From contig NZ_CP147917.1 in NCBI RefSeq assembly GCF_039645965.1, forward strand, positions 1,178,001 through 1,242,000: a stretch of DNA of 64,000 bases. The letters run 5' to 3'. The notes under the pieces are model-generated. The model did no database searches and was not told the DNA's origin. It worked only from the letters and a program-made list of their open reading frames with translations. Below, piece by piece: positions 3 through 29,192 of the stretch (positions within the stretch are counted from its first letter, which is position 1; every line of letters starts with the position of its first letter). The position numbers and the translations under genes were made by a program. This DNA comes from Sulfurimonas sp. HSL3-2. GTDB taxonomy: Bacteria; Campylobacterota; Campylobacteria; Campylobacterales; Sulfurimonadaceae.

Positions 3-2213
3 TCATCGCCGCGTGCTTTAGTGATACGAGACGGCAAAAAGATGCGTATTGCAGGACAGGATGTCGTCCCTGGAGATCTGCTTATACTGCATGAAGGTGA
101 CCGCATTCCAGCAGATGCTACTCTCATAAACGGTCAGCTTTCAGTTGACGAATCACTCCTTACGGGAGAATCCGTACCCGTAAATAAAATGGTAAGCGAA
201 CCCGGAGATGAAAGCTCTTCACTCTTTGCCAGTACTATCGTCACAAAGGGTTACGCAAAAGCACTGGTACAGCAAACCGGTAATGCGACAGCAGTAGGAG
301 GCATCGGCAAAGCACTCTTGGAGACATACGAGACTACGTCAAGACTACAACGGTCCTCTCGCGTCATCATAAAAAATCTTGTTATGATCGCTTTTGCGAT
401 GGTAGTACTGCTTGTACTTGTAAACTGGCTGTTAAACGAGCAGTCATTTTTACAGAGTATCCTTTCAGGCATCACATTGGCGATGGCAATACTGCCTGAA
501 GAGATCACGGTTATTCTAACAGTGTTCTTGGCACTCGGTGCATGGCGCATCTCCAAGATAAACGTCCTTACCCGTGATATCACGGCAGTAGAAGCACTTG
601 GGACGACCACTGTCCTTGCAGTTGACAAGACAGGGACATTGACGCAGAACTCTATGCAGGTCGCAGAACTCTCAATAGACGAAAATTCATTTATATCATC
701 AGAGGAAACGCTTGAAGAGGAGTTCCACTCACTTGTAGAGTTCGCCATGCTCGCAACACCGCAAAACCCTTTTGATCCGATGGAAAAAGCGATACAGTCC
801 TTTGGACATGAACTTCTAAGCGGTACCGAGCATATACATGATGACACTGTTCCCCATTTTGAGTATGAACTCTCTCCTGAGATCCTCGCGATGACGCGCG
901 TTATATCTACCGAAAGACCTTCGCTCTATCTGCTGGCTACAAAAGGAGCTCCCGAAGCCGTAGCAGATTTGTGTCATCTTCCTGAAGAAAAACTGCAGGA
1001 TATCCAGCAAAGAGTAGAAGGGATGGCCAAACGCGGACTACGTGTCCTTGGAGTCGCACGCGGTGAGTGGAAAAAAAAAGATCTGGCAGAGGAGTGGCCA
1101 AAAAGTCAGCATGATTTTGATTTTACTTTTCTTGGTCTGGTCGGTTTCATAGACCCTATCCGCCCAGAAGTACCCGCTGCCATACAAGAGTGTCAAAATG
1201 CAGGTATCAAAGTGCTTATGCTTACAGGCGACCATCCGGCGACGGCACAGGCGATAGCAAGAGAAGTCGGCTTGGCTTATGATGCTCAAATCATCTTAGG
1301 TGATGAGATAGAATCTCTCAGTGACGATGTTTTAAAAGAGCGCTTAAAAAACATTACGGTCTGTGCACGTATGAGGCCTGAACATAAACTAAGACTTGTA
1401 CAGGTATTGCAAGACAGCGGTGAAATAGTCGGTATGACTGGAGACGGTGTCAATGATGCTCCAGCACTCAAAGTATCAAATGTAGGGATTGCAATGGGAC
1501 AAAGAGGTACCGATGTCGCCCGTGAAGCGGCATCTCTTGTTCTGCTTGACGATAGCTTTGCAAGTATAACAGCCGCTATATCGCAGGGAAGACGCATCTA
1601 TGACAACATCACAAAAGCTACACGTTTTGCTTTTGCCGTGCATCTGCCCATTATCATACTCACACTTTTGCCTGCACTTTTACAGTGGCCTATACTTTTG
1701 ATGCCTGCGCATATCGTACTTTTACAGCTTCTTATCGACCCTGCCTGCTCCATCGTCTTTGAGTCAGAACCTGCATCAGCCGATATTATGAAACGTCCGC
1801 CTAGGCATATCGATGCCAGTCCGTTTGCTCTTTCAAATGTCGGACATGCACTTATTCAAGGCAGCGGGATAGCTTTTATACTGATAGCGGGAGATTATGT
1901 TTTACAGCAGATGGAATGGAGTGATGCGCAGATACGTATCTCTGTGTTCATCGCATTTGTCTTGACACTCTTTTTTCTGGTCTTGGCGAACAGAACCTTT
2001 AGAGATCCGATCAGGCTAAAGATAAAAGAGAGCAATCCGTGGATAATCTATATGCTGGGCGGTGTGGCTCTCATCCTAAGCGCCGTGATATTTGTCCCCT
2101 TGCTGCGTGATATCATGAAATTTTCACCGATAGATGTTCAGACAGCTGCGGCTTCTTTGATACTTTTAACGGCTAGCGGAATATGGCTGCAGATACTGCG
2201 TTATCGATCTTGA
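3..2213 (+). CDS. cation-translocating P-type ATPase, 3' part
   Basis: The reading frame is open to the left edge of the window, so the N-terminus and first membrane helices are missing. Counting from the GTG at 21, the actuator motif TGES lies at residues 48-51, PEE in the ion-binding helix at about 159, the phosphorylated DKTGT at 202-206 and the hinge GDGVND at about 474-479. Hydrophobic C-terminal helices follow. The family pumps cations across the inner membrane using ATP. A CPC motif is absent and a PEE helix is present, which fits a P2-like (Ca/Mn/Mg class) pump rather than a Cu/Zn P1B pump; the substrate cannot be read. Its stop abuts the stop of the convergent cyclase gene with no gap. 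Confidence 0.9.
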   Translation, partial: SSPRALVIRDGKKMRIAGQDVVPGDLLILHEGDRIPADATLINGQLSVDESLLTGESVPVNKMVSEPGDESSSLFASTIVTKGYAKALVQQTGNATAVGGIGKALLETYETTSRLQRSSRVIIKNLVMIAFAMVVLLVLVNWLLNEQSFLQSILSGITLAMAILPEEITVILTVFLALGAWRISKINVLTRDITAVEALGTTTVLAVDKTGTLTQNSMQVAELSIDENSFISSEETLEEEFHSLVEFAMLATPQNPFDPMEKAIQSFGHELLSGTEHIHDDTVPHFEYELSPEILAMTRVISTERPSLYLLATKGAPEAVADLCHLPEEKLQDIQQRVEGMAKRGLRVLGVARGEWKKKDLAEEWPKSQHDFDFTFLGLVGFIDPIRPEVPAAIQECQNAGIKVLMLTGDHPATAQAIAREVGLAYDAQIILGDEIESLSDDVLKERLKNITVCARMRPEHKLRLVQVLQDSGEIVGMTGDGVNDAPALKVSNVGIAMGQRGTDVAREAASLVLLDDSFASITAAISQGRRIYDNITKATRFAFAVHLPIIILTLLPALLQWPILLMPAHIVLLQLLIDPACSIVFESEPASADIMKRPPRHIDASPFALSNVGHALIQGSGIAFILIAGDYVLQQMEWSDAQIRISVFIAFVLTLFFLVLANRTFRDPIRLKIKESNPWIIYMLGGVALILSAVIFVPLLRDIMKFSPIDVQTAAASLILLTASGIWLQILRYRS

Positions 2214-22123: not shown

Positions 22124-23707
22124 CTAGCTCATTATCCCTTTTATCATGAAGAATACCGCAGCACTAAGAACTGCCGCAGCAGGAACAGTAATGATCCATG
22201 CAGCGACGATCTTTTTCACTGCATCTCTTTTTACGTACTTGATCTTTTTAGCACCTTTGTACTCTTTTTTCTCCAGTTTGACAAGTTCTTCCTTCTCATC
22301 GATACTTTTGAAGAGTTCTACGATCCTCTCGTAGTCTTGCTGGTTTTTATTTTCCAGTTTATCAAGGCTTTTCAGTTCATCACGCATGTCGTCAAGCTCT
22401 TTTTTGTCAGCTTTGAACTTCTCTTTGACGCTCTCTAAAAACTTCGATTCGCCGCGGTCAAGATACTCTCTTAAAAAACCGACACCAAATACGCCGCCTA
22501 CTGCGATATGAGTAGAAGAGACAGGAAGCCCCAGCTGAGAAGCGACAATAACTGTGATAGCTGCTGCCATAGCGATACTAAAGGCTCTCATCTGATCAAG
22601 TTCAGTTATCTCGTTTCCTACAGTCCTGATAAGCTTAGGGCCGTAAAGTGCAAGACCTATCACTATACCGATAGCACCCACACTCATTACCCAAAACGGG
22701 ATGCCGACTGCCTTATTAATAGCGCCTCCGATAACAGCATCGTTAATAGCCGCCAACGGCCCGATAGCATTTGCGACATCGTTTGCACCGTGTGCAAAAC
22801 TTAACAGTGCAGCTGCAAAGATGAGCGGAATAGTAAAAAGCGTATTGACGCCTAATCTGTTTTTTTCTACTTTATCCGCAGCTTTTATGATCATCGGTTT
22901 TACAAAGAAAAAGATTATGATCGAAGATACGACACCGATACCAAGAGCAGTAATGAAGTTTACTTTGACAAGATGCTTGACACCTTTTAGCATCAAGTAT
23001 GTAACAAATGCCATAGCCATGACAGAGATAAGAAAAGGCACCACTTTCTTAGCACTTTGTACCATATCCTCTTTATAGACGATATTTTTCTTTATGTAGT
23101 ATAAAAAGGAGGCGGCTATGATTCCTCCCAGTACCGGAGAGATGATCCAGCTTGCTACGATCTTCCCGACCGTCATCCATGAGACTATGCCAAATCCGGC
23201 AGCTGCGATCCCTGCACCCATGACACCGCCGACTATCGAGTGTGTAGTAGAGACAGGCGCACCAAAATATGTAGCAAGGTTCAGCCATAAAGCAGCGCTT
23301 AAAAGTGCAGCACTCATAGCCCAGATAAAGATCTCAGGATTTGCGATCATACCCGGATCGATGATCCCTTTTTTGATCGTCTTAACAACATCACCGCCGG
23401 CGATAAATGCACCGCTCGCTTCAAAGATCGCCGCAATGATAATAGCACCCATCATAGTCAGTGCTTTAGAACCGACAGCCGGTCCTACGTTATTTGCAAC
23501 ATCATTAGCACCTATATTCATAGCCATATAAGCACCAAACACAGCACCTATGATCAAAAAGGTGTTATCGTGTGCCCCGTTATGTGAAAAAGTTATCCAA
23601 AAAAACACTAATGCAATAAATAAAAATGCAAGTGCCAGTCTCGCATAACCGCTAGGCTGTGTTTCTATCGTAGCCTTTTCCATACTTCTGATCGTCTTTA
23701 TATCCAT
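22124..23707 (-). CDS. PiT-family inorganic phosphate transporter
   Basis: A 527-residue membrane protein with the two inverted PiT signatures: GANDVANNVGPAVGSKA near residue 66 and HGANDVANAIGPLAAI near 308. These form the phosphate/cation site. A long charged cytoplasmic stretch between about 425 and 505 (rich in Lys, Glu and Asp, probably coiled coil) precedes the last helix. It should give low-affinity phosphate uptake coupled to H+ or Na+, complementing the Pst system next door. A TATAAT box lies about 33 bases before the ATG, on the minus strand at 23741-23746. Confidence 0.9.
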   Translation of the reverse strand: MDIKTIRSMEKATIETQPSGYARLALAFLFIALVFFWITFSHNGAHDNTFLIIGAVFGAYMAMNIGANDVANNVGPAVGSKALTMMGAIIIAAIFEASGAFIAGGDVVKTIKKGIIDPGMIANPEIFIWAMSAALLSAALWLNLATYFGAPVSTTHSIVGGVMGAGIAAAGFGIVSWMTVGKIVASWIISPVLGGIIAASFLYYIKKNIVYKEDMVQSAKKVVPFLISVMAMAFVTYLMLKGVKHLVKVNFITALGIGVVSSIIIFFFVKPMIIKAADKVEKNRLGVNTLFTIPLIFAAALLSFAHGANDVANAIGPLAAINDAVIGGAINKAVGIPFWVMSVGAIGIVIGLALYGPKLIRTVGNEITELDQMRAFSIAMAAAITVIVASQLGLPVSSTHIAVGGVFGVGFLREYLDRGESKFLESVKEKFKADKKELDDMRDELKSLDKLENKNQQDYERIVELFKSIDEKEELVKLEKKEYKGAKKIKYVKRDAVKKIVAAWIITVPAAAVLSAAVFFMIKGIMS

Positions 23708-23848: not shown

Positions 23849-24514
23849 TTATTCGACTAGACCTAATTCCCCGCCCATTCTTGCAAAAAGAAGCAGACTG
23901 CCGACATCTAATGCACGGTCTGCGATCTTTTCGCTTTTTCTTAAAGCGCTTAGTATCTTGGTAAATTTACCGAAATCTTCTATGTTAGGAGCTTGCTTAA
24001 AGATATTATCTTGTAAAAGCTCATACAGATCATCTGTCTTGCTTTCAGAGATAAGAACTTTATTGAAAAGTTCTTGTGTCTCATCTGTGCATGTAGTCTT
24101 GATCATATTGACGACCGCAGTCAGACACTCAACAGTTGATTTTTGCATAGGCACTGCAAACTCTTTGACTGTAGTCTCATCCAGTTCAGAACAGTAGTTG
24201 CTAAGACCTGAAATGAAACTTCTTGTGTTTGAAGAAGCACGTAAAAGTTCGTTTGTGATCTTAAAAAATGATACTATCAGACGCAGGTCTCTAGCTTCGG
24301 GAGAATAAAGCGCCAATATTTTAACGATCGTATTGTCTATCTCCGTAGTCTTTGAACTCATGTTTTTCAAGCTCTCTTTTGCTCTTGACAATATATCTTT
24401 GTCACACTCTTGCAGTCCTGTAAGAATCGCGATATTTGCTTCTAGTATATTCTCAGCGATCGTCGCTATTTTCTCATTGATATCGTCTAGTTGGTTGCTG
24501 TAAGTCTTTAACAT
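23849..24514 (-). CDS. phoU: phosphate uptake regulator PhoU
   Basis: A 221-residue all-helical protein with the two PhoU repeats; acidic metal-binding positions fall in segments such as TEIDNTIVKILALYSPEARD and SRFFKITNELLRASSN-like helices. PhoU links the Pst transporter to the phosphate two-component system and limits uptake. No phoB/phoR-type pair is encoded in the window. Its ATG overlaps the pstB stop by one base (TAATG), so it is the last gene of pstSCAB-phoU. Confidence 0.9.
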   Translation of the reverse strand: MLKTYSNQLDDINEKIATIAENILEANIAILTGLQECDKDILSRAKESLKNMSSKTTEIDNTIVKILALYSPEARDLRLIVSFFKITNELLRASSNTRSFISGLSNYCSELDETTVKEFAVPMQKSTVECLTAVVNMIKTTCTDETQELFNKVLISESKTDDLYELLQDNIFKQAPNIEDFGKFTKILSALRKSEKIADRALDVGSLLLFARMGGELGLVE

Positions 24515-25296
24515 TATCCAAATCTCCCCGTAATATAATCTTCTGTTCTTTTTTCTTTAGGATTTAAAAAGATCTTCTCTGTTTCATCATACTCTATTAA
24601 GTCACCTAAATACATAAATGCAGTGTAGTCGCTAATACGGCTTGCCTGCTGCATATTATGCGTTACTATGGCGATACTGACATCTTTTTTAAGTTCTACT
24701 ATAAGCTCTTCGATAGCTGCAGTTGAGATAGGGTCAAGTGCAGATGTAGGCTCATCAAAAAGTAGAAGCTCAGGTTTAAGTGCGACCGCTCTTGCGATAC
24801 AAAGACGCTGCTGCTGTCCGCCGGAAAGTCCCATTGCACTTTTGTTGAGTCTATCACTTACCTCGCCGAAAAGCGCACTGCCTTTTAAAGCGATCTCGAC
24901 TCTGTCAGCAAGTTCCGTCTTATTTTTGATCCCGGCAATACGCAGACCATAAGCGACATTATCAAAGATACTCATAGGAAACGGTGTAGGTTTTTGAAAG
25001 ATCATCCCGACACGCTGGCGTAAAGAGATGAACTCATTCTCTTTTTTGATATCAAGAATGTTTTCCATCTCGCCTGTACCCTCGTTTAAGAGCATAAGCT
25101 TACCCTCATACTCATTACCCGGATAGAGATCATGAATTCTGTTTAAAGATCTTAAAAGTGTCGACTTTCCACATCCGCTGGGACCTATTAAAGCTGTTAT
25201 AGAGTTCTTCATAATCGGTAAATTGATAGTGTTTAATGATCTAGCTTGTGCCGAAGCATATGTAAAACTAAAATCTTCTATACTCATTATTGGCAT
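24514..25296 (-). CDS. pstB: phosphate ABC transporter ATPase
   Basis: A 260-residue ATPase with Walker A GPSGCGKS (38-45), a [15 protein letters not shown] segment that is diagnostic for PstB, signature LSGGQQQR and Walker [14 protein letters not shown]. It powers high-affinity phosphate import through PstCA. The ATG at 25296 has an AAAGGAT ribosome site. It lies 5 bases after pstA. Confidence 0.95.
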
Positions 25297-25301
25297 AAAT
25301 A

Positions 25302-26105
25302 TTATCCTTTGTGTCTTGTAATGTATCTTCCGATCAGGTTAATCATTAAAACCATGACCGTTAATATGAATGATGCTGCCCAAGCCAGATCACGGCTTGA
25401 TTGGACAGGGTCGTTTGCAAGGTTGTAAATACTGACCGTTAAAGATGGAAAAGCTTCTGTCAGATCCAGACTAAAGTAGTTACTTGTCTCACTTGTAAAA
25501 AGAAGCGGAGCAGTCTCACCTATTATCCTTGCGAAAGAGAGAAGCAGACCTGTCATGATCCCTACTTTCGCAGCCTTGATGATAATATCCAAGATAACAC
25601 GGTATTTACTTGCACCCAGTGCGATCCCCGCTTCACGCAGCTCTCTTGGAACAAGTGAAAGCATATTGTCCGTCGTGTTGATAACGATAGGAATCATCAT
25701 GATAGCCAGTGCTATACTTCCCGCAAATCCGCTTGTCCCGCCAAACGGAGCGACAACAATAGCATACACGAAAGCACCGATGACGATCGATGGAGCACTC
25801 ATCATGATATCGCTAAGATCACGTATAAATCTTACATACTTGCCGCGTCCATATTCTTGAAGATAGATACCCGCAAGCATACCGATAGGAATACCGATCA
25901 ATGATGCGATACCTGCAATAATGAATTGTCCTATGATCAGGTTTCTAAGTCCGCCGTCGATAAGATCTTTAAAGAACAGGCTTAAATGAAAAGAGGTAAG
26001 ACCTTTTGCGATCAAAGTCACTAGAATCCATCCTAAAAATGCCAGACCTATTAAAGCGGAGATCGTCGATAATAACAGGACGATCTTATTTATCGTTAAT
26101 CTCAT
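25302..26105 (-). CDS. pstA: phosphate ABC transporter permease PstA
   Basis: A 267-residue inner-membrane permease with about six helices. The coupling-loop motif [22 protein letters not shown] is split over residues near 160-182 and contacts PstB. With PstC it forms the phosphate channel. Its start overlaps the pstC stop by one base. Confidence 0.93.
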
Positions 26106-27073
26106 TAGTCAGCCTTTCTTAAGAAGTAAAATTTTGCAACCGAAATAACCACAAAACTGATTATGAAGAGTAAGAATGCAAGATAAAAGAGTGATGACAA
26201 CGTAAGACCTGTCGCTTCACCGAAATTGTTCGCCATTGCGACCGGAATCGATATAGTCGGATCATTAAGTTTATGCGGCATAACGAATACCGAACCGATC
26301 AAAAATGCAACTGCCATTGTCTCACCTAAAGCACGTCCAAGTGCAAGTATGATAGATCCGATAATACCCTTTTTAGAGTATGGGAATATAACATCTTTTA
26401 TGACTTCAAACTTTGTAGCACCAAGTGCATAAGCAGACTCTTTTAAGACATCGGGTGTCGTTCTCATACTGTCTCTTGTGATCGCCGCCATAAACGGAAG
26501 GATCATAACGCCCAGCACTAGCCCCGCCGTTAGAAGTGAGACCTGATAACCGCCGACAACGCTTTGGATGATAGGAGCGAAATAAAACAATCCCCACATA
26601 CCGAAGATGATACTTGGTATCGCCGCAAGAAGTTCGATCGCTATACCGACGATATTTGATACTTTTTTTGGAGCAATCTCTGCCAAGAAGACTGCGATCC
26701 CCATTGCGATAGGCAGTGCAAAGACCATAGCTATCAAAGTTGAAAGAAGAGTACCTACGATAGGGATAAGTCCACCGTAAATAGTTCTCATAAGAGGTTC
26801 GTCCTCATCTTCATATGCTGCTAATATATCATCTTCATATGCATCTTCGGAAACTGCAGGTTCAGGTTTGATCTTTTGCGCATCTGTAGCCAAGTGAGTG
26901 ACGCTGTTTTCAATAGGAACATCTTTTTCCCATGCTGATTCAGTTATAAATCCTAATCCAAACTCATCAATGGATGGTTTAGCAGAATTAAACAGACTAA
27001 TAAATATCGATACCAAGAGTACCAATACAAATGTAGCACTTATCAGAGAGAGGTTCTTAAAGATTTTTTCCAT
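26105..27073 (-). CDS. pstC: phosphate ABC transporter permease PstC
   Basis: About 322 residues. One helix at the N-terminus is followed by a roughly 90-residue extracytoplasmic stretch with an acidic patch (YEDDILAAYEDEDEP), longer than the short loop in E. coli PstC; then the usual permease core with the coupling motif ESAYALGATKFEVIKDV. I use the ATG at 27073, right before the first helix; an upstream ATG at 27118 would add 15 residues. The ribosome site is weak. It lies about 170 bases after pstS, separated by a hairpin. Confidence 0.9.
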   Translation of the reverse strand: MEKIFKNLSLISATFVLVLLVSIFISLFNSAKPSIDEFGLGFITESAWEKDVPIENSVTHLATDAQKIKPEPAVSEDAYEDDILAAYEDEDEPLMRTIYGGLIPIVGTLLSTLIAMVFALPIAMGIAVFLAEIAPKKVSNIVGIAIELLAAIPSIIFGMWGLFYFAPIIQSVVGGYQVSLLTAGLVLGVMILPFMAAITRDSMRTTPDVLKESAYALGATKFEVIKDVIFPYSKKGIIGSIILALGRALGETMAVAFLIGSVFVMPHKLNDPTISIPVAMANNFGEATGLTLSSLFYLAFLLFIISFVVISVAKFYFLRKAD

Positions 27074-27201
27074 ATATATACCATGCTTTATAAATTCTAA
27101 AAAATGCAAACAATGCACTTTTAAAAATCTATCACTATTTTGAAATGAGATTATAAACTAGATAAGATACAAGCTTTATTAAACGAGGAGTTTTTTTACA
27201 A

Positions 27202-27241: not shown

Positions 27242-28249
27242 TTAGTTAATACCTTTTTCTGCCCAGTATGTTCTAATTTTGTTTGTTAATGCATCTGGAA
27301 GTGGAACATAACCTAGTTCACTTGCAAGCTCTTGACCGTTTTTGAATGACCAGTCATAGAATGCTGTAACTTTTTTGTTCATTGCAGCTTTTTCTTGAGG
27401 CATTAAGATAAATGTCGCAGCAACGATCGGGTATGCGTCTTTACCAGCTGGATCAGCGATTACAGCATAGAAATCTTTTTTAGGATCAAGATCAGCTTTT
27501 GCAGCAGCAGCTTGGAAAGCTTTTAACTCAGGTTTGATGAAGTTACCCTCTTTGTTTTCAACAACAGCCATTTGAAGGTGGTTGTTTTTAGCATCAGCAT
27601 AGTCAACATAACCTACAGAGAAAGGAGTTTGTTTGATAAGTGCAGCAACACCAGTGTTACCTTTACCACCAACGTGGTGATCACCTGGCCAGTTAAGTGC
27701 TTTTTTAGCTCCGTATGCTTGTTTCCAGTCATTTGAAATTTTACTTAGGTAGTAAGTAAAGTTAAATGTAGTTCCTGAACCGTCAGCACGGTGAACGAAA
27801 GTAATTTTTTCATGTGGAAGTTTTACACCTTTGTTTGCAGAAGTGATAACTTTGTCATCCCAGTATGCTATTTTACCAAGTGCGATTCCAGAGATAGCAT
27901 CACGGCTTAGGTTTAATTTAGGAGTGTTTGGCATATTGTAACTCATTGTAATAGCACCAACAACACCAGGGAATTGGTAAAGTTTGTCTTTAGAAAGTTT
28001 GTTAGGGTTTAAAGGTGCATCTGTACCTGCAAAATCAACAGTTCTAGCTTCAGCATCTTTGATACCAGCTGAACTACCTTTAGAGATATAATCGATCTCA
28101 GTTCCGTTTGCTTTGTGGTAAGCACCTATCCAAGATTGGTAAACGCTATATGGAAAAGAAGCTCCACTTCCTTTTAAATCCGCAGCAGACACTGAACCAG
28201 TTGTAACCATTAAAGCAGCTAATGGTGCTAATAACGCAAGTTTTTTCAT
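27242..28249 (-). CDS. pstS: periplasmic phosphate-binding protein
   Basis: A 335-residue protein with signal peptide (cleavage expected after GSVSA, about residue 22) and the PstS start GSGASFPYSVYQSW. Phosphate-ligand segments include SKGSSAGIKDAEARTVDFAG and HRADGSGTTFNFTYYL. It delivers phosphate to PstCAB. An AAAGG ribosome site precedes the ATG. Upstream, an 11-bp direct repeat resembling a Pho box sits 7 bases before a TAAGAT -10 box, which suggests induction under phosphate limitation. Confidence 0.95.
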   Translation of the reverse strand: MKKLALLAPLAALMVTTGSVSAADLKGSGASFPYSVYQSWIGAYHKANGTEIDYISKGSSAGIKDAEARTVDFAGTDAPLNPNKLSKDKLYQFPGVVGAITMSYNMPNTPKLNLSRDAISGIALGKIAYWDDKVITSANKGVKLPHEKITFVHRADGSGTTFNFTYYLSKISNDWKQAYGAKKALNWPGDHHVGGKGNTGVAALIKQTPFSVGYVDYADAKNNHLQMAVVENKEGNFIKPELKAFQAAAAKADLDPKKDFYAVIADPAGKDAYPIVAATFILMPQEKAAMNKKVTAFYDWSFKNGQELASELGYVPLPDALTNKIRTYWAEKGIN

Positions 28250-28282: not shown

Positions 28283-28316
28283 ATCTTAAACTCTTTTGAT
28301 TACAAGTTGATTACAA
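28283..28316 (-). promoter_or_regulatory. Pho-box-like repeat and -10 box of pstS
   Basis: On the minus strand TTGTAATCAA occurs twice with 11-base spacing (28307-28316, then 28296-28305), followed 7 bases later by TAAGAT (28283-28288). PhoB-type regulators bind 7-bp direct repeats spaced by 11 (CTGTCAT-like), replacing a -35 box. The spacing fits; the sequence match is partial. Confidence 0.6.
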
Positions 28317-28335
28317 AGAGAGTAAATGTTATAGT
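28307..28335 (+). promoter_or_regulatory. promoter of the small membrane-protein genes
   Basis: TTGATT, a 17-base spacer and TATAGT, about 24 bases before the start codon at 28360. The -35 hexamer lies inside the Pho-box-like repeat of divergent pstS. Confidence 0.5.
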
Positions 28336-28359
28336 TACAGTAAAAAATCGGGAGTCAAT

Positions 28360-28455
28360 ATGGATGAAGCATCTGCAGTCGGCGAAAATATCATACTTTT
28401 TTTGGTAATACTGGGCATAGTTGGTATAATACTTACAAGAAAAAAAGAGAAATAA
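28360..28455 (+). CDS. 31-residue single-helix membrane protein
   Basis: A very short gene with a good ribosome site (GGAG, 5 bases before ATG). It begins MDEASAVGEN, continues as one hydrophobic helix (about 11-25) and ends in RKKEK, so the C-terminus should face the cytoplasm. Family not recognised; size and layout recall small subunits such as CcoQ or KdpF, but nothing links it to them. It stops just before the next small membrane gene and diverges from pstS. Confidence 0.6.
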   Translation: MDEASAVGENIILFLVILGIVGIILTRKKEK

Positions 28456-28462
28456 GGTGAAA

Positions 28463-28654
28463 ATGATGAAACAAAGTCAAATAGATAAAAACTGGTTTGT
28501 TATATATAGTGTAATGCTTGTATTTGGTTTAGTATGGGCTATGATCGGTGACAGCAATATGAAAATTGTATTTGTAACTGCTGCATTCGGACTCTTTTTA
28601 TACTCTGGTATAAAAATGGAACTAAACGCTCTTCACGCTAAAAAAGCACACTAA
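28463..28654 (+). CDS. small two-helix membrane protein
   Basis: About 63 residues with two hydrophobic helices (about 11-29 and 34-51) and a basic, His-containing end (HAKKAH). The start could be the ATG at 28463 or 28466; an AAGGTG site precedes both. Function unknown. It follows the 31-residue gene within about 8 bases and both probably come from the promoter at 28307, so a role connected with phosphate supply is possible but unproven. Confidence 0.6.
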   Translation: MMKQSQIDKNWFVIYSVMLVFGLVWAMIGDSNMKIVFVTAAFGLFLYSGIKMELNALHAKKAH

Positions 28655-28688: not shown

Positions 28689-29183
28689 TTATTTAATATA
28701 CTCCGGTAACAACTCTTTAATACGATTATATATCTTTTCAAAATCTGTAGAATACACTCTCGTACTTGCGATCGATGTAATAAAATTCGTATCTCTGCTC
28801 CATCTTGGGACAAGATGCATATGGATATGTTCAGCTATCCCTGCCCCGCCGCTCTCGCCCAGGTTCATACCGATATTTACACCGTGAGCTTTAAACCCCT
28901 CTTTTAAGAGTCTCACGCTTTTTTGCGCCAGATCGCTCATATGCAGCCAAGTCTCACTCGGCAGCTCTTCAAGCTTGTCCGTATGAAGATGCGGGATGAT
29001 CATAAAATGCCCCGGAGTATAAGGGTATTTATTCATGACCATAAAGCAGTGTTCGTCTCGGTAAAGAACATGCAGGTCACTGTCATCTTGTGCATGCGAG
29101 CTTATATGACAGAACACACATCCCTGCACATCTTTTTGACTGACATATTCACTTCTCCATGGAGCGTATAGTATCTCTTCCAT
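28689..29183 (-). CDS. HIT-family nucleotide hydrolase/transferase
   Basis: About 164 residues. The histidine triad HIHMHLV (HxHxHxx) is present near residue 117, and GHFMIIPHLHTDKLEEL is the upstream family motif. Bacterial HIT proteins of this size often hydrolyse Ap4A or similar dinucleotides. I use the ATG at 29183 with an AGGAT site; a GTG one codon upstream is less likely. It lies 9 bases after the TRAP permease gene and ends the minus-strand run that begins with the FapA-domain gene. Confidence 0.88.
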   Translation of the reverse strand: MEEILYAPWRSEYVSQKDVQGCVFCHISSHAQDDSDLHVLYRDEHCFMVMNKYPYTPGHFMIIPHLHTDKLEELPSETWLHMSDLAQKSVRLLKEGFKAHGVNIGMNLGESGGAGIAEHIHMHLVPRWSRDTNFITSIASTRVYSTDFEKIYNRIKELLPEYIK

Positions 29184-29192
29184 CACTATCCT

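Follow-up and report, generated by a model that had tools for sequence, protein, structure and literature searches.

The pst operon and the small genes beside it

The window, meaning the whole stretch of 64,000 nucleotides that was analysed, carries a phosphate uptake operon on the minus strand, headed by pstS (27242..28249), which encodes the periplasmic phosphate-binding protein and matches the NCBIfam model TIGR00975 with 336 bits, above the cut-off. The remainder of the operon, 23849..27118 (-), is presumably made up of pstC, pstA, pstB and phoU, named by order and appearance, and the gene directly after phoU, at 22124-23707, is taken by its appearance to be a PiT-like phosphate permease, so that two types of phosphate uptake would stand together. 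Upstream of the pstS ATG at 28249, direct reading of the minus strand gives TTGTAATCAA-C-TTGTAATCAA at 28296-28316, that is, TTGTAATCAA twice with 11-base spacing, followed by seven bases (AAGAGTT) and the -10 box TAAGAT (28283..28288, -), just as an earlier note on this DNA had described. Read as a Pho box, this interval (TTGTAATCAACTTGTAATCAA, 28296..28316, -) faces pstS and holds the core TGTAATC-N4-TGTAATC at 28298-28315, which ends 9 bases before the -10 box. With up to 3 mismatches allowed, the repeat has one match in the window versus 0.02 expected, and the 2.24-Mb genome contains no other perfect copy, just three further matches with 3 mismatches each.

Divergent from pstS are two small genes, p31 (28360..28455, +) and p63 (28466..28654, +), with a HIT-domain protein (28689..29186, -; PF01230) as convergent neighbour, which lies near the pair in 15 of 20 loci. 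The product of p31, a gene recognized from its open reading frame, dN/dS, hydropathy and relatives, has 31 residues with a single hydrophobic stretch (best window 7-25), a predicted transmembrane helix, and a basic C-terminal end, RKKEK. The frame of p63, a gene supported by distribution, dN/dS and AlphaFold2, ends at 28654 and could start at GTG 28457, ATG 28463 or ATG 28466, giving 65, 63 or 62 residues, respectively; ATG 28466 is favoured as the start, since the corresponding codon in G016 is GTG and the codons ahead of it are unconserved. An AlphaFold2 model built with 10 sequences predicts a membrane hairpin of helices 3-26 and 31-61 (mean pLDDT 89.8). In the six genus genomes that carry the pair (15 pairwise comparisons), dN is 0-0.10 and dS 0.10-0.59 for p31, while the ungapped core of p63 gives dN of 0.04-0.26 and dS from 0.29 to saturated; judged by these substitution patterns, together with hydropathy and the structural model, the tiny membrane proteins of 31 and about 63 residues proposed earlier are real genes, with purifying selection acting on both. 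Synonymous divergence of p31 (28360-28455) is below that of p63 in the same genomes, perhaps because a promoter of p63 lies inside p31. Neither protein has a Pfam or NCBIfam match over the cut-off, in agreement with the earlier description of both as belonging to no recognized family; the sub-cut-off matches to FeoB_associated (E 0.09), MASE10 (E 0.003), Loki-CTERM (E 0.002), LPXTG_anchor (E 0.04) and weaker ones were rejected as short hydrophobic look-alikes.

The promoter assigned to p31 in the earlier note, TTGATT, a 17-base spacer and TATAGT, was found as described, and a TG at 28327-28328 ahead of TATAGT (28330-28335) completes an extended -10, TGnTATAGT (28327..28335, +). The -35-like TTGATT (28307..28312, +) lies within the Pho box and, like the extended -10, is invariant in 6/6 genomes, with a spacer of 17 bases in four of them, the window included, and 18 in two. 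In the direction of p31, the cores read in reverse (GATTACA), and 14 bases (four genomes) or 15 (two) separate the nearer core from the -10, versus the 9 at pstS; a Pho box in their own orientation at activating distance is thus absent from p31 and p63. The AA next to each half-site core, which completes TTGATT, is kept in 6/6 genus members and is variable at other pstS loci, so that p31 may be adapted to the box, a suggestion that is weak with six related genomes. For p63, a promoter-like site lies within p31 (TTGGTA-17-TATAAT with TGn, 28402..28430, +), and it recurs in relatives: TATAAT or TATACT stands ~30-70 bases upstream of p63 in most of them, inside p31 in the genus, with no clear hexamer in L109, L112 and L124 and with a mis-anchored row for G038 that refers to a different site. 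This recurrence is to be read with the frequency of such hexamers in AT-rich DNA in mind, and with the fact that the 31 codons of p31 are few.

The Pho box at pstS and elsewhere in the genome

Of the 121 genomes of the family, 100 gave a match to pstS, and the upstream sample consists of the best 30 of these 100, 29 of them with upstream DNA (L052 has none). Because the pattern TGTAAYC-N4-TGTAAYC was picked after the upstream regions had been inspected, and because the 29 are the nearest relatives by pstS and a non-random sample, the figures are descriptive and no independent-sample test: within 150 bases upstream and in the right orientation, 28/29 regions have the pattern with two mismatches or fewer, 15 of them without any, the exception (L055) having 3 mismatches, and 200 dinucleotide shuffles yielded a mean of 0.065 of 29 and a maximum of 1. 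From the second core of the best-scoring box, a TANNNT -10 hexamer is reached after precisely 9 bases in 28 of the 29 regions, at a TANNNT background of 2.1% for any given position (window), and L058, the exception in spacing, also fits by way of an overlapping 2-mismatch box of equal score. This family-wide box with its 9-base spacing argues that the box belongs to pstS, where its distance to the -10 of the putatively activated gene is fixed. In all six genus members with the p31-p63 pair, the core is invariant. At some pstS loci, a second box lies in the opposite orientation (0 mismatches in L039; 1 in L038, L040, L048, L049 and L056), the arrangement expected of a divergent gene under Pho activation.

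In genome G000, the pattern has 56 matches with at most 2 mismatches versus 26 when read backwards; inspection covered 30 of the 56 as loci and 19 in stretches, and many matches fall within genes because the pattern is short. The search for the repeat at other phosphate genes, which had been proposed as a check on the earlier note, was productive among the intergenic matches: a two-mismatch box lies ~40 bases upstream of the gene for the best PhoB-like regulator, and one-mismatch boxes precede ppk (polyphosphate kinase) and a gene called porin-like by eye, which no library names. At the PhoB-like gene and ppk, a -10-like hexamer, likewise judged by eye, starts 10 bases on versus the usual 9. 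The regulator (G000:C1:10035-10703) scores 188 bits on TIGR02154, whose cut-off is 296, and is therefore PhoB-like, unconfirmed as PhoB; a sensor-like open reading frame follows, the start of which, the part that was read, gives weak kinase matches. Two further matches combine a box with the 9-base spacing, namely a one-mismatch box at G000:C1:2103907 (-) (L160 ~2108) with TAAAGT and then an open reading frame of 54 acidic residues, and a two-mismatch box at G000:C1:1466454 (+) (L159) with TACAAT upstream of a sensor histidine kinase-like open reading frame. Two direct repeats of 11 bases, each with a conserved core of 7, recurrence at the PhoB-like gene, ppk and the porin-like gene, and the position at pstS identify the repeat in the window as the Pho box that serves the pstSCAB-phoU operon in a Sulfurimonadaceae bacterium.

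Outside the window, a perfect Pho box, TGTAATCAAGATGTAATC, is followed after 9 bases by TAAAAT at G000:C1:23875-24040 (+) (L135 ~1582-1745), and downstream of it lie ~120 apparently non-coding bases. The 5' hairpin of this stretch, ATCGTG...CACGAT, is nearly unchanged in six genomes, while the sequence of the 3' hairpin varies by lineage; the locus and a box of 0-2 mismatches were found in the same six genomes. Two genomes have folding z-scores of -4.7 and -4.9, another two have -1.8 and -1.6, a search of Rfam returned no match (best E 0.57), and the RNAalifold consensus from five of the six genomes (G038 omitted) is weak, with 6 pairs, because the 3' hairpins align badly, the single folds (4/6) being stronger. 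The locus is a candidate for a phosphate-regulated small RNA that is conserved in the genus.

Distribution and neighbourhood of the p31-p63 pair

Of the 121 family genomes, 25 carry p63, six of them among the 8 of the genus and 19 outside it; an order-wide profile search recovered it in 6 of 298 genomes, five from the same family and a marginal one (E 9.9e-4) from another; and a scan of genome contigs confirmed 9 loci among 124 candidate stretches, all titled Campylobacterota bar one labelled just 'bacterium'. In the genus, p31 and pstS adjoin p63 in 6/6 genomes with the box in between, as the earlier note would predict for relatives, but beyond the genus no such association was seen. Within 1.5 kb of p63, pstS was found in none of the 19 outside-genus genomes (3-kb loci). 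Wider stretches were available for 18 of these, and p63 was relocated in 17, L116 being lost at the cut-off; none of the 17 has pstS within 5 kb of p63, several lying on short contigs, and none has a box with at most 2 mismatches on either strand in the 500 bases upstream of p63, 3-mismatch matches occurring in 3/17. A link of the pair to a phosphate gene or a Pho box past the close relatives was thus seen at 0/17 loci. A lone TTGTAATCAA just upstream of p63 in L021, being a single half-site, was taken as chance.

A p31-like open reading frame lies upstream of p63 in 12 of the 17 outside loci, with order and size kept, and is missing in L106, L113, L117, L119 and L124; a short hydrophobic frame in L124 was left uncounted since it has no doubled lysine after the helix at the equivalent place. 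The neighbours recurring among the 17 loci are a thiamine-binding-like protein (15), HIT (12), FliL (8) and Crp/Fnr with cytochrome c (6). Contact with pst was seen in this genus alone, and by this distribution, not by a tree, the pair together with the neighbours on its right seems to predate that contact. In genus g11 (L108, L115, L118, L120, L121, L125), Crp/Fnr, cytochrome c, p31 and p63 are co-directional, a gene order that offers a clue to what the pair may do. With the Crp/Fnr regulator and cytochrome c as recurring co-directional neighbours, the best guess, held with low confidence, is that p31 and p63 form a small membrane complex, accessory to a respiratory complex, that is tied to respiration more than to phosphate.

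Proposed phosphate control at the overlapping promoters

From the box, its spacing and distribution, the gene neighbourhoods and the coding selection, all of which are read from the DNA, we infer binding, the direction of regulation and function. It is probable that PhoB acts as an activator of pstS and has, on p31, a repressive effect at most or none at all, the pair being older and independent. Under phosphate shortage, the phosphorylated form of a PhoB-like regulator of the OmpR family, for which the product of G000:C1:10035-10703 is the best candidate, would sit in tandem on the two 11-base half-sites, facing pstS, and once bound would bring RNA polymerase to the -10 that lies 9 bases beyond. 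The pst operon would have come alongside the pair in an ancestor of the genus; as the operon now adjoins the pair, the -35 of p31 lies inside the Pho box, and consequently bound PhoB should hinder p31 or be neutral, and should not activate it. For p63, transcription probably begins at a promoter of its own within p31, with little effect of PhoB. The earlier expectation that binding would affect both directions is accordingly to be divided: the box overlaps the p31 promoter, and bound PhoB should touch both pstS and p31, but p63 has its own promoter-like site, which would uncouple it from the box.

A further reading, somewhat less likely than not, is that the 22-base box acts as a two-way switch, being at once the activating site of PhoB for pstS and the -35 region of p31, so that phosphate starvation activates pstS and turns p31 off. 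Such an arrangement would have arisen in one genus as pst met an unrelated pair, and would have been kept for its usefulness. It is somewhat unlikely that p31 is simply unregulated by phosphate, with adjacent promoters, reliance on the extended -10 and a neutral PhoB, which corresponds to the neutral half of the preferred explanation. The invariance of TGnTATAGT in 6/6 genomes is consistent with this, but the -35 position just ahead of p31 is occupied by the box. A protein bound over the -35 normally hinders polymerase. Sigma-70 promoters of Campylobacterota often have no clear -35, and for this reason the argument from the overlap would weaken. In E. coli, moreover, some PhoB sites lie near active promoters that show no PhoB dependence, according to passages in PMC10294691.

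The proposal of the earlier note, in which a bidirectional box lets PhoB activate p31 and p63 alongside pstS and makes them new small Pho proteins, is distinctly unlikely. The box does stand between the divergent genes in all six genus members with the pair, and both the extended -10 of p31 and the TTGATT in the box are invariant there, but the box faces pstS, the p31 -10 lies at 14-15 bases and not at 9, p31 has no separate opposite box of the kind seen at L039, L040 and others, and none of the 17 loci outside the genus has a box near the pair. A box that covers the p31 -35, is reversed and is off-spacing makes PhoB repression, or no effect, likelier than activation. The original observation was hence sound and the Pho box name correct, being borne out at 28/29 pstS upstream regions, the PhoB-like gene and ppk, while the proposed new phosphate genes are unsupported by comparison, with neither pstS nor a box at any of the 17 outside loci. 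That the repeat is a chance occurrence or the site of another tandem-binding regulator, a reading to which a regulator no more than PhoB-like would lend itself, is very improbable: 0.02 matches are expected in the window, and the repeat recurs, at a nearly constant spacing, at pstS, the PhoB-like gene and ppk.

A full-text literature search returned no paper containing both 'Pho box' and 'Sulfurimonas', and the Sulfurimonadaceae now gain a Pho box consensus, with its spacing, that can be put to the test. In addition, the locus illustrates how misleading the adjacency of genes within a single genus can be, since the small proteins resemble phosphate genes only through their place in this genus. 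The p31-p63 pair keeps its own order and size at 12 of 17 outside loci, whereas adjacency to pst is found just in the genus. In the same phylum, PhosS/PhosR of Campylobacter jejuni is a phosphate two-component system that regulates pstSCAB, according to passages in PMC3197622 and PMC4415409, the likeness concerning the system and its target. A Pho box is defined in PMC4415409 as two 11-base direct repeats, each of 7 conserved and 4 loose bases, and passages in PMC10294691 describe E. coli PhoB as an activator or a repressor depending on where its site lies, activated promoters requiring strict spacing. The box here resembles that of E. coli in that direct repeats replace the -35 at a fixed distance from the -10, at pstS, the PhoB-like gene and ppk, with TGTAAYC as the conserved unit in contrast to CTGTCAT in E. 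coli (PMC4415409). Unlike in the E. coli Pho system, the regulator falls below the cut-off of the PhoB model, and the promoter of an unrelated gene on the opposite strand overlaps the box.
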